Below are positions 25,935 through 30,319 of a stretch of 64,000 bases of DNA, piece by piece (the first letter of the stretch is position 1; each line of letters begins with the position of its first letter). The notes under the pieces were generated by a model. It was not told the DNA's origin and ran no database searches. It saw only the letters and a list, made by a program, of their open reading frames with translations. Made by a program: the position numbers and the translations under genes. This DNA comes from Prorocentrum cordatum (lineage: Eukaryota > Sar > Dinophyceae > Prorocentrales > Prorocentraceae): contig CAUYUJ010018063.1 in assembly GCA_963575745.1 (NCBI GenBank), forward strand, positions 124,001-188,000, given 5' to 3'.

Positions 25935-28900
25935 CTAGATCGGCGCGGTGTCATCGACCACCAGACGCTGGTCGACGCCAGTGCACTCTAAAGACGGCGC
26001 TGCGAGGGCATGCACAGCGTCCATGACTTCCAACCGAATGCCCGTGCACTGTGGCTGGGCCCGTCTGGCGCCCGCCTGCGCGGCGGCGGAGGCAAGGGCC
26101 CGGGCGTCGGCGCTCCGAGACCGCCTCCGGGGAAAACCCAACCGAGCACCGCCACCGCTGCTCCCCGCGCCTCTCCTGGGGTGCGCTCTGAGACCAGGAG
26201 CTCCGGGCGAATCCGGCGGTGGCGACGAGGGCCGCTGCAGGAGGCCCCGAGGGGGGGAAAACGGGGCAGGGGCAGCGGTGTGGGTCTAGGGCTCCCAACT
26301 TCGCGCTTCGCGCTCCGCGAAGCGCGAAGCGCGAATAACTTCGCGCCCTCGCGCCGCCCCCCCAAAGGGAGAAAAGGAGGACGAGGAGGAGGGGGAGAAG
26401 GAACGAGGACCGCGAAGCGCGAAGCGCGAATAACTTCGCGCCCTCATGGGAGCCCTTGTGGGTGTACCTCTCCCTCCGCCGGAGACCGCCTCGCATCCTC
26501 TGGCTCCTGCCGCAGCGCGTCGGCCTCCAGCTGCAGCCTGCCCGGCTCCGCGGCGCGGCCGCTCGGGCCGTGCGGCGCCTGCTCCGGGCCGCAGGACCCC
26601 ACGGCGTGCCCGCGTCGTTACAGAAATCACGACGGGAGGTGTTTGCCCGTTTCCGCTGGGCGTTGCCCGACAGAGGGGGGGGGTCGGCAGAAGAAGAAGA
26701 AGAAGAAGAGGAAGAGGAAGAATAATAATAAGAAGAAGAAGGAAACAAAGAGAGGAAACATACATCCTAGCTTAGAAGAGGCCCCGCGAGGGGGGCAGGA
26801 CACAGATGTAGCCCGGCTCACTGGCAAGTGAACTGCTCGAAAAAATCATCGTGCGAAATCCATTATGATCGTGAGCTGGCGGCATGATGCCATCCACATC
26901 GGCGTTACCGTGAGCTGCGGCGTGATGCCATCCACATGCATGATGCCATTATGATCGTGAGCTGCGATACCAGCACGTTCGGCGTATCGGCGCAACGACA
27001 GAGAAGCGTGCACCTTTCGTCCCCCTCATGGGCCCCAGGGGGCCTCTTTAAGGCCCGCACGGTGCGCAGGAGAAGCACCCGTCTTCACGCCCCCACTCCT
27101 CGCCCACATTTGCGCAACACCCAATGTCGGCCTTCTTGGACCCTCTCCCAGCGCTGGGACCGTCAACAAAAACGACTCGGGACGAAACACCAGCCCTGGG
27201 GAAATGGTCGGGACTTCAGCAGAACACGCAAAGAAACACCCTCATGTTATGCACCCAGACCAGCGAAACCGTTTGGTAAATGCACCCATGGCAGGAATCG
27301 AACAGGTCAGGGCTGTTTCGTCAACGCCCAGGGCCCTTTAGCAGACGCCCATCGTGGGGGTCGGGGTGGTCTTCCCTCCCTCGATTCTGGGGACCCCGTC
27401 TTGATAAACATCTGGGCATCGCATGTCTGTCGGGGAGACGTAAGACTCGCTTACGGGGGTCTTGGGTTGGCCTGACGGGGCCATCATAAAACATGACGAG
27501 GCCCAAGATGACATTTGACGCGAACTCCCGCTGCAAAACCCCACGAGCACTGACCCTCCTAATCTGGGACGCGCACGTCCAAACACGTCGGCCACCCCGA
27601 GCTCCGGCCTCCTCGAGCCTAGCCTTACGCCCCCCCCCCCGAGTCTGGGGAGGCAACCCCTGCTCTCCGCCCCTGCGCGCGCCGCCTCGGCCTCCCTGGC
27701 CCGCTGCTCCGCCCCCGCCGCGCCGTCGTCCGCGCCCGCCGTGGCGGCGGGCGGGGCCTCCGCGAGCTGCAGCCGGCCCCTCAGTGCCTCGAGGTCGGCG
27801 CGCAGGCGCTCGCGCTCGGCGCGGAGCGCGGCGACCTCCGCCGCGGACTGCTCGGCCAGCTGCTTGGCGCTGGCGAGCTGGCGCTCCGGCGAGGTCTCGT
27901 CCCCCGGTGGGCTGGCCGGCCCGCTCGGCGCACAGCTCGTCGATGGCCCCGCCACCACCTCGGCTCCCGCGTCGTCGGAGATGTCGAATCGCTCAGGCCC
28001 CGCTCGGCAGCCCCTCTCTGCTGCCAGCGCGCTGTGCCTGTCCAGCTCGGCTCTCTGCGGCCCGTGGGCGGCCTGCAGCTGCGCGCACCTGTCCTCCGAC
28101 TCCGCGAGGCTCGCCCTGATCGCTTCTCGCTCGGCCGTGAGCTGGAGCAGGCTGCTCTGCGCCGAGGCCAGCTCCTCCCTGAGCGCGCCAGACTCCGCGG
28201 AGAGGGCGGCCAGCTGGCTGCTCGAGGTGGTCCTCTGCTGGAGCTGCTGCGTGAGCTCGCCGACCAATGCCTCTGAAGGGGCCCAGGGCCACACAAAGAA
28301 ATACACACAAATCCCAGCATACGTACGCCATATTTCCCATATTTGTGGGATTGTCGTCTTCTCCCCCACTTCCCATCTTTTTCCCATATGTTCGAAGGAA
28401 TCGACGACTAATTGTTTCTGTATGTTGTGTTTTCCCTCCTGAACCTCGGCGTCGACCAGCCGCTGCCTCAGCGGGCCCACCTCCAGCGAGCCTCTGATGA
28501 GGTCCTCGTTCGAGCGCGCGCTCTCCTGCAGCTGCCTGGCCAGAGCGGCGCACTGGCCTTGCGCCTCAGCCACCTTGGGGGCCACATGCGAAACCTACCC
28601 CTGCCTTTCGGTCGGGCGTGTCCCCCTGCAGGCGGATTCTGGACGGCAAAAATGATACAACAAATCGTCCCCAGACTATTTTTTGACTATTTTTGCATAT
28701 TCCTCCTGTAGAGGGGCGGGCCCGACTTGACCCTACCCCCCGCGATTTCTGAGGGGAGAGTGGGGTCGGGCTCGCATGCGGTCCCCCTACACCTGCGCGT
28801 GGGAGTCCGCCAGCTGCTGCCTGAGCGCGCCCGACTCCACAGTCAGCGCCGCCAGCGCCTCGCTCTGCGAGACCGAGGCGCCGGCCTGTGCCTCGGCCTC

Positions 28901-30319
28901 CGCCAGCCTCTGCTTGAGAGACATGGCCTCTGCCACTGCCGCGAGCAGCCTCTCGCTGGCCGCGGCTCCGCTCTGCTGGAACTGCTCGGTCAGCGCGCCG
29001 ACCTGCGCCTGGGCGTCGGCCAGGCCGGCCCTCAGCGCGGCGGACTCGGCGGTGGCCGCGGCGAGCGCCTCGCTGGTCCCGCTGCCCTGCTGCAGCTGCG
29101 CGGTGAGCGCGCCGACCTGCGCCGACAAGCTCCTGACCTCCTCTGGGGAAGGCAAAAGGTACTGATACCGCTGCTCCCTGGGCCTCTCCCAGGGCGCGGT
29201 CTGGATTGCGAGGCGAACCCAGCGGTGGCGACGACGGGGTCCCCAGGAGGCCCAGAAGGGGGAAAACGCGTGCAGGGTGGCGGCACGGGTGCACACCTTT
29301 TCCTCCTCCGATCCTCGTCCCTCCCCGCGAGGCGCTGCTCGAGCTCGTCTCGCTGCGCCGAGAGCCGGCCCTCGCCCGCCCGCGCCAGGTCGAGCTGCGC
29401 CCGCAGGCCAGAGCACTCGGCCGCGGCCTCCGCGAGCTCCTTGTTATTGGCCAGACCCCCCCCCCGGGGGCCCAGGATCCGCCCGGCCAAGATCGGTGTG
29501 GGCGCACGGCAGGTTCGTGCGGCGTCGGCGCGCGCAAATTTTTTTGACACCACGTCGATCGTTCAACCGTGAATCAATCGCGGCCCAAACCGTTCAAGGT
29601 TGAATTCCGTCGGTTCCCGTGGCGTTGCCCTGTCCCTCGGTGCGTCCGCATCGCAGAGTTCAACCTTGAATACATTCGCCAGCATCGCCAACGCCGCATG
29701 AACCTACCGTACAGTGGACGGCTTGAACAAGGAGCACTTACTTTTCAAAAGGGGCTCGGTCGTTCATTAGGCTTGCATGCGTTCGTTATCGTTCCTTATG
29801 CGTTATGTATGATCTAACGTTCAAACAGGCTTCGTTCCTTATTCATTGTTCCATAGGCCAGGCCGATGACTGTATGTTTGGAGCCGTCCGATCTCCATCT
29901 CCGCGCTCGCGGCCGCCAGCTGCTTCGACAGCTCGTCGCGCTCCGCCGTGAGCTGGGCGACGCTGCCGTGGGCCTGCTCGAGCTGCTGCGCCAGCGTGTC
30001 AGAGGCGCCGCCGAGGTCCTGTGTCCTCTCCAGCTGATGCTGCATGGCCGCTCGCTCGGCCTCGGCCTTCGCGCATCGCTCCGACAGGACGGCCATCTGC
30101 TTTCGGAAGGTCATGCTGTCTCCCTTGTCTTTCTCTGAGCTGGCCTCCCACTTGCGGAGCTGCACCGCCTTCTCCTGATCCTTCTGCTTCAGCGTCGCGA
30201 CCTGGCGCTCCAATTCTGCCACCTGCTGCCGGCTCTCCTCGAACGCGGAGTAGAGGCGATTGACCTCTTGCGCCGTGAACGAGCGCTCCTCCTGCAACTC
30301 CTTCAACTGCTTTTGCTGC
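25935..30319 (-). CDS. multi-exon coiled-coil protein gene (5' end not found)
   Basis: Exons on the minus strand: 1, 30319 to about 29890 (LKELQEERSFTAQEVNRLYS, ELERQVATLKQKDQEKAVQL); 2, 29439-29314; 3, 29140-28793 (SLSAQVGALTAQLQQGSGTS); 4, 28573-28445; 5, 28270 to about 27660; 6, about 26610-26490 (GRLQLEADALRQEPEDAR); 7, 26124-25935 ending in TAG after LEVMDAVHALAAPSLECTG. Exons 2-4 are whole multiples of three in phase 0. Exons 6 and 7 join in phase only with a GC 5' splice site, and exons 2 and 3 only with a GA one. Nearly all the protein is heptad-patterned, Gln/Ala/Glu/Leu-rich coiled coil with an acidic insert in exon 5 (ERFDISDDAGAEVV). It resembles long structural coiled-coil proteins in general, and no specific family was recognised. 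Exon 1's 3' edge, exon 5's end and exon 6's start are unresolved. A further small exon may lie near 30690-30648. Confidence 0.6.
26125..26489 (-). mobile_element. intron 6 of the coiled-coil gene: introner family I1, long copy
   Basis: GC 5' splice site (GATGCGAG|GCGGTC) and acceptor TTCCCCGGAG|GCGGTC. The 11-mer GAGGCGGTCTC occurs at both edges (26492-26482 and 26127-26117). The 3' ~165 nt match intron 2 of the same gene: plus-strand blocks CCGCTGCTCCC, GCGGTGGCGACGA, GGAGGCCC and GGGGGAAAACG are shared in order. The 5' part has an extra insert with duplicated GCGAAGCGCGAA hairpins. Confidence 0.7.
26299..26444. repeat. duplicated GCGAAGCGCGAA hairpin block
   Basis: The block CGAAGCGCGAAGCGCGAATA plus ACTTCGCGCCCTC occurs at 26318-26352 and 26410-26444. 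The first copy is preceded by its complement, forming a strong hairpin. It lies inside intron 6. Confidence 0.75.
26860..26960 (+). repeat. ~43-bp repeat (GTGAGCTGCGGC...GATGCCATCCACAT)
   Basis: Three imperfect units with ATTATGATCGTGAGCTG and GATGCCATCCACAT blocks. Confidence 0.7.
26961..27227. other. intron 5 spacer with F5-like stretch (27140-27225)
   Basis: GGGACCGTCAACAAAAACGACTCGG-like sequence resembles the minus-oriented F5 core. The rest is unassigned. Confidence 0.45.
27228..27385 (+). mobile_element. F10 element, copy 1
   Basis: Contains AAACCGTTTGGTAAATGCAC, GGAATCGAACAGGTCAGGGC and GTCAACGCCCAGGGCCCTTT, with ends related to AAAGAAACACCC and GGGGTGGTCTTCCC. Homologous to 30400-30565 and 44895-45230. 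Confidence 0.75.
27386..27659. other. intron sequence, nothing specific
   Basis: Lies between exon 5 and the F10 copy of the coiled-coil gene. No repeat family or exon was recognised. Confidence 0.4.
28271..28444 (-). mobile_element. intron 4 of the coiled-coil gene: introner family I2
   Basis: GT 5' splice site (GCCGAG|GTTCAGG) and acceptor CTTCAGAG|GCATTG, 174 nt. The whole intron aligns with a non-genic element at 44938-45107: CCCTCCTGAA, ATCGACGA, TCGTCTTC...CTTCCCA, CCATATTT and ACACACAAATCCC blocks are shared in order. Confidence 0.72.
28574..28792 (-). other. intron 3 with inverted ends, containing F1 copy L
   Basis: GT 5' splice site (GCGCAG|GTGTAGG) and acceptor CCCCAAG|GTGGCT. The two edges are inverted (GGGGGACCGCATGCGAG near the start, complementary to TCGCATGTGGCCCCC near the end). 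The intron may therefore itself be a foldback-derived insertion, later hit by F1. Confidence 0.5.
28607..28730 (+). mobile_element. F1 MITE copy L (inside intron 3)
   Basis: TTCGGTCGGGCGTGTCCCCC to GCCCGACTTGA. Flanks CCCTGCCT and CCCTACCC (6/8). Its insertion lengthened an existing intron and did not touch the exons. Confidence 0.9.
29141..29313 (-). mobile_element. intron 2 of the coiled-coil gene: introner family I1, short copy
   Basis: Frame is kept with a GA 5' splice site (GGGACGAG|GATCGG) and acceptor CCCCAGAG|GAGGTC, sharing GAGGA at both edges. A GT at 29296-29295 is an alternative 5' site but breaks phase. The 173-nt intron is homologous to the 3' part of intron 6. Confidence 0.7.
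29511..29706 (+). mobile_element. F8 element, copy 2 (inside intron 1)
   Basis: AGGTTCGTGCGGCGTCGGCG to CGCCAACGCCGCATGAACCT, inverted ends of about 20 bp. The internal ATCAATCGCGGCCC and CGTTCAAGGTTG blocks match 13502-13672. Confidence 0.85.

Follow-up and report, generated by a model that had tools for sequence, protein, structure and literature searches.

A short dispersed element with apparent introner activity in a coiled-coil gene of the dinoflagellate Prorocentrum cordatum

The origin of new introns is a long-standing question, and introners, repeated sequences that create introns on insertion into exons, are one described source of them. Work by Roy from 2023 is said to treat the introners of dinoflagellates. 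Here we analyzed a stretch of 64,000 nucleotides of P. cordatum (NCBI GenBank assembly GCA_963575745.1, contig CAUYUJ010018063.1, positions 124,001 to 188,000 of the forward strand; hereafter the window), in which introns 2 and 6 of one coiled-coil gene share a repeated sequence that we designate I1. The same genome holds an intron-poor paralog of this gene.

The accessible text of PMC9860276 describes, across eukaryotes, introners that have terminal inverted repeats (TIRs) and short duplications, some of which draw both splice sites from their target. The families in that survey range from 5 to more than 2,000 copies each, introner copies are enriched in genes in 161 of 175 genomes, and the introners of Symbiodinium microadriaticum combine TIRs with 4-bp target duplications. 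At the present locus, the explanation we favor, with a probability of roughly 0.86, is that I1, a dispersed element resembling a miniature inverted-repeat transposable element (MITE), produced introns 2 and 6 by insertion, the splice sites coming from the duplicated target.

Two introns that share one sequence

The gene spans about 30400-25950 of the window, on the minus strand. The features of its two I1-bearing introns, in the direction of transcription, are as follows; in splice sites and peptides a slash marks the exon border.

29141..29313, minus strand: intron 2, GA-AG, phase 0; excision gives AGRDE/EVRSLSAQ, where the paralog reads ...AGKSEELRSLSAQ
29312..29316, minus strand: first copy of the target-site duplication of intron 2, GAGGA, which holds the donor AG/GA and is present as a single copy in the paralog (L064)
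29144..29311, minus strand: I1 body of intron 2, about 168 bp, delimited by alignment with genomic copies
29139..29143, minus strand: second copy of GAGGA, which holds the acceptor AG/
26125..26489, minus strand: intron 6, GC-AG; excision gives PEDARRSRSAD
26482..26492, minus strand: first copy of the target-site duplication of intron 6, GAGGCGGTCTC (11 bp)
26459..26481, minus strand: 5' end of the intron-6 copy of I1, ahead of a nested insert
26286..26458, minus strand: the nested insert, a 173-bp TIR element (CAAGGGCTCCC...GGGAGCCCTAG) with its own ACCCA duplication
26128..26285, minus strand: rest of the intron-6 copy of I1
26117..26127, minus strand: second copy of GAGGCGGTCTC (11 bp)

The initial annotation had reported ordered blocks common to intron 2 (29313-29141) and the 3' part of intron 6 (26489-26125), and these were found in the places it gave: 88 of 119 aligned positions are identical with 9 gaps, that is, 74% identity over 119 bp at an expectation value (E) of 4e-17. 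The local alignment score of 77 lies far above that of 500 dinucleotide shuffles (mean 18.4, maximum 33), which rules out similarity by chance or through GC-rich composition; the GC content of the window is 59.9%, and that of a 181-kb genomic sample described below is 59.7%. Intron 2 scored only 16-28 when aligned, on either strand, with the gene's other introns and with the nested part of intron 6, and a profile built from the two sequences retrieved from the window both intron copies and two weak partial matches. The proposed boundaries also fit, since the frame stays open across each junction once 29313-29141 and 26489-26125 are removed. Placing I1 in the 3' part of intron 6 was correct, but the 5' end of this intron is also I1, cut off by the nested 173-bp element, so that, judged from the alignments, the whole of intron 6 is best described as an I1 copy plus this insert. 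Predicted RNA folding of intron 2 was barely better than that of shuffled sequences (z -1.8; 10 of 200 shuffles were as good).

A dispersed family and its genomic surroundings

To find further copies, the genome (4,128,499,153 bases in 21,875 contigs) was searched with intron 2. The search returned 2561 first-look candidates; 40 were scored and all 40 matched, one being the query itself, and these 39 further places bear out the prediction that many genomic copies exist. Thirty of the 39 non-query matches were read. To these were added intron 2, six composite copies, one of them intron 6 (see below), and four copies from the genomic sample; without L058, the aligned set to which the following counts refer comprises 40 copies. 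L058 (C12282) and L055 (C18866) have identical 300-bp stretches and perhaps represent a duplicated region or an unmerged haplotype. The consensus, built without five copies with truncated or badly aligned ends (L004, L035, L046, L060 and L062), is 167 bp long and thus leaves no room for a transposase. Abundance was estimated from 20 stretches, each of 10 kb and set at round coordinates, on six long contigs met in a genome search (180,664 non-N bases in all); they contained four strong copies (E 1.6e-12 or better) and weaker partial matches. Extrapolated from this sample, the genome would hold, as a rough figure, about 91,000 copies (Poisson range 25,000-234,000), and the true number is probably in the tens of thousands.

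By eye, the aligned copies start near TCAGAGGAGGAAAAGGTACC and finish near GGTACCTTTTGGTTTCCCC(A), ends that can also be given as TCAGAGGAGG and TTTCCCC and that form imperfect TIRs. Of the 40 copies, 15 are flanked by an exact direct repeat of at least 5 bp (5 bp in ten, 7 bp in three, 11 bp in one and 17 bp in one), whereas re-pairing the ends among copies in 200 trials gave such repeats in a mean of 2.0 and a maximum of 6; around four more copies the repeat is 4 bp long. The family thus has several features of a MITE, namely short length with high copy number (167 bp; four strong copies in 181 kb) and imperfect TIRs; its target-site duplications are of no fixed length (exact ones of 5-17 bp, inexact ones of 26 and about 32 bp). 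Cumulatively, these alignments argue that I1 is a short, non-coding, MITE-like and putatively mobile element scattered through the genome. At one place (L011, 4982-5183) it occurs in both orientations, making a long inverted repeat.

The composite copies came from a separate genome search, whose query favored combinations of I1 with the nested element. Among the 40 places scored, six, intron 6 included, have the 173-bp element beside an I1 copy, and the five other than intron 6 match at 82-85% identity over both elements. In the remaining 34 the match is mainly to the nested element (92-100% identity), with an additional weak match on the I1 side in C15433. At L002-L008 the 173-bp element has the TIR CAAGGGCTCCC and duplications of mostly 5-6 bp. 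The I1 parts of the five measurable composites are already 16-23% from the I1 consensus; the nested element therefore looks younger than I1.

The initial annotation had further expected nearly all copies to lie in introns. For each of the 40 copies, the 60 bp to either side (slightly less of the 5' flank in two) were scored with a codon model, with 3,561 random positions as the null; exons 1 and 5 of the coiled-coil gene and a 494-codon frame of L032 served as training sequence. This test replaced an earlier one with 210-bp flanks on 31 copies, which would miss short exons; its training set favors the seed gene, and its reach is the 60-bp flank, short of a location inside a long intron. At the 5% level, coding-like flanks in the sense direction were found on both sides of four of the 40 copies (2 expected), namely introns 2 and 6, L034 and L059; introns 2 and 6 and L034 are the top three of the set. 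L059 was not counted as exonic, because its two flanks repeat each other, and none of the four sample copies is among those with two-sided coding flanks. The expectation was therefore not borne out, no two-sided coding flanks being found for 36 of the 40 copies. From the figures published for P. cordatum (85,849 genes x 2,798 bp, in the accessible text of PMC10666404), exons occupy about 6% of the genome, about 240 Mb of 4.13 Gb, and random insertion would be enough to place one clear exonic copy among the 38 non-seed copies. The description that suits I1 best is a dispersed MITE-like element with introner activity; this activity appears real, yet the element is not restricted to introns.

Empty sites, splice sites and competing explanations

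The spliced sequence of exons 2 and 3 matches contig C16655 without a break (query 1-343 of 346, 80%), and that of exons 6 and 7 matches about 1.2 kb further along the same contig (query 14-180 of 228, 71%). The 1,701 bases read from this region (L066, L064 and L065) form a single frame of 566 codons without stops, which runs from exon 1 to the start of exon 7 and lacks introns 1, 2, 3, 4 and 6; around intron 5 the alignment is too poor to place a junction, but the paralog frame continues. No I1 match was found within the 1,381 paralog bases tested. Where intron 2 would lie, the paralog has AGC GAG GAG CTC, in which GAGGA occurs once, and the aligned exon blocks overlap by 5, 3 and 4 bp at introns 2, 3 and 4, as expected from single copies of the direct repeats. 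These contiguous empty-site matches, with the direct repeats around both introns, bear out the earlier claim that inserted copies of one repeated sequence made the two introns.

Over 494 codons the pair has a synonymous divergence (Ks) of 0.505 and a nonsynonymous divergence (Ka) of 0.219 (Ka/Ks 0.43), so that half of Ks, about 0.25, falls to each lineage. Intron 2 is 14% and the I1 copy of intron 6 is 23% from the consensus. At 14% against about 25% per lineage, intron 2 looks younger than the paralog split, and this comparison suggests that it was probably gained after separation from the intron-poor paralog.

Three I1 copies stand between coding exons: introns 2 and 6, and L034 in another gene. 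Similar introns thus occur at non-homologous positions and in a second gene, and the GAGGA and GAGGCGGTCTC repeats together with the empty sites of the paralog point to insertion into coding sequence, subject to the retrocopy explanation weighed below. In all three, cutting from AG/G in the first repeat to AG/ in the second restores the frame, which at L034 joins GRDE/EWLWWRG. The donors would be GA in intron 2, GC in intron 6 and GA in L034; for P. cordatum introns as a whole, the accessible text of PMC10666404 gives GT 24.7%, GC 51.4% and GA 23.8%. Splicing at the GTACC inside the I1 end was also considered; traced by hand, it fails to keep intron 2 in frame with exon 3, and we therefore prefer the GA/GC-AG sites of the duplication. 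The splice sites thus appear to lie in the duplicated target (AG/G), outside the element. This refines the earlier proposal that the mobile sequence carries, or completes, splice sites.

We hypothesize that I1 inserts into an exon and that a target holding AG/G becomes duplicated, one duplicate providing the donor (AG/GA or AG/GC) and the other the acceptor AG/. A pyrimidine-rich outward end of I1 may serve as the tract before the acceptor, and the spliceosome would then remove the element. Because the two ends mirror each other, either orientation of I1 might work. Introns 2 and 6 would be two separate insertions, with intron 6 later taking up the second element. A broader version is tentative and, in our estimate, unlikely to hold in full: by an insertion mechanism unusual for an element with TIRs, a target duplication varying from 5 to about 32 bp would bring AG/G to either end and thereby let any exon acquire a clean intron. 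The gene and its paralog would then show the states before and after, at least four introns of at least three element families having been added since a single duplication.

Several observations weigh against the proposed insertion of I1. No exact repeat of at least 4 bp was found at the expected place around 21 of the 40 copies, although hand alignment of three of these gave an inexact repeat of 26 bp at L037, a repeat at L059 that has one gap and is about 32 bp long, and a 7-bp repeat at L060. The repeats at L037, L059 and L049, the last of 17 bp, are far above the usual 5 bp, and a duplication length of 5 to about 32 bp is unusual for a cut-and-paste element. Two-sided coding flanks in antisense were found at the 5% level for three of the 40 copies (introns 2 and 6 and L052). 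Around intron 6, the match to the paralog is weak toward exon 7, and the clock comparison, itself rough, cannot place intron 6 (23%) after the split. The junctions of the I1 introns are predictions read from the DNA. The coiled-coil gene has no protein relatives at E 0.001 among 7988 scored candidates. As for the L034 gene, it is weakly identified as channel-like through calcium-channel similarity at E 0.07, has no Pfam match, and in a search for its empty site the genome returned the locus itself and no paralog. For the coiled-coil gene, Pfam searches with exon 1 and part of exon 5 gave coiled-coil matches, all under the curated cut-offs. A comparison with phage records gave no match.

That the paralog lacks every intron that could be judged, introns 1-4 and 6 all together, with no comparable insert at the place of intron 5, also counts against gain by insertion, as it would be expected of a processed retrocopy of a spliced transcript. 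The introns would then predate the paralog, and the comparison would display splicing and not gain, with the introns still element-derived; such a paralog would record the spliced messenger and so confirm the junctions. Gene retroposition is known in dinoflagellates. Nevertheless, the divergence of intron 2 from the consensus, below half of the paralog Ks, and the direct repeats at the ends of introns 2, 3, 4 and 6, as insertions would leave, make a retrocopy possible but rather unlikely, even though AG/G at both ends is common in dinoflagellate introns anyway, which weakens the argument from the repeats.

It is considerably less probable that I1 is an ordinary dispersed MITE whose copies here remain unspliced, in a decaying gene or as retained segments. 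The 36 copies that lack a two-sided coding flank would fit this, as would an intron 2 region that is open in two reading frames. Against it stand the exons, whose frame continues unbroken over the junctions, a Ka/Ks of 0.43 for the 494 codons compared, and the recovery of the frame at each of the three exonic copies. Copying of one intron into another site of the same gene, by intragenic duplication or gene conversion and with no mobile family, would account for two copies in one gene in the same orientation; it is contradicted by the dispersed family, as many copies lie on other contigs and those among the matches listed are closer to intron 2 (78-85%) than intron 6 is (74%), and introns 2 and 6 are flanked by different direct repeats, leaving this explanation practically negligible. 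Insertion of I1 with splice sites taken from the target therefore remains the reading we prefer.

The other introns of the gene resemble repeated sequences as well:

29440..29895, minus strand: intron 1, best read as GA-AG; missing from the paralog
28574..28792, minus strand: intron 3, GT-AG with an AGGTG direct repeat; contains part of a third dispersed family; absent from the paralog
28271..28444, minus strand: intron 4, GT-AG with a GAGG direct repeat; a different dispersed family of about 170 bp, near full-length; absent from the paralog

The intron-4 family occurs also at L010, L011, L013, L014, L019, L028 and L032 (6599-9713); L032 has four copies in about 3 kb, next to a long frame which, by eye, resembles an amine oxidase. 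The third family, that of intron 3, is very frequent, with ends like GTCGGGCCTGTCC...GGACAGGCCCGAC and 15 partial matches elsewhere in the window; its matches include window positions 4157-4077, 3499-3426 and 12499-12433 as well as L034 798-960. The regions of introns 1 and 5 (29890-29450 and 27670-26620) contain sequence repeated elsewhere in the window or at other loci.

I1 among described introners

The locus combines, in one genome, an intron-bearing gene and its intron-poor sister, and in this pair the element, its duplication and the empty site can each be read. Two things are suggested by it: an element that is abundant and not restricted to exons can make introns simply through the copying of AG/G at both of its ends, and a young intron can afterwards take in a second element and so lengthen.

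Like the introners of S. microadriaticum and Polarella glacialis, I1 is a repeated sequence that would make introns on insertion into exons. Unlike the dinoflagellate introners as characterized in the accessible text of PMC9860276, it appears to borrow both splice sites, and unlike the families counted there it probably has tens of thousands of copies, most of them not between exons. Closer in this respect are the introners of Florenciella sp., which by the same text co-opt both splice sites from the insertion site and have none in the element; this is a different organism, and the likeness is one of description. Introner elements of Amoebophrya (Farhat 2021, PMC7789003), as far as the accessible text goes, share with I1 the direct repeats over the exon-intron borders and the inverted repeats at the intron ends, but are unlike it in forming mostly non-canonical introns, in their strain-specific families and in inverted repeats that start with TTA or TAT. 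In P. cordatum itself, the elements of Dougan 2023 (PMC10666404, accessible text) resemble I1 in having inverted repeats and short direct repeats near the intron ends; they are defined by a pattern (8-20-nt inverted and 3-5-nt direct repeats), whereas I1 is defined as a sequence family. A literature search on introners found no named sequence family of P. cordatum in the article text that it covered. Introners themselves are already known; I1 adds to them an apparently new family of introner-type element, with an unusually clean empty site.
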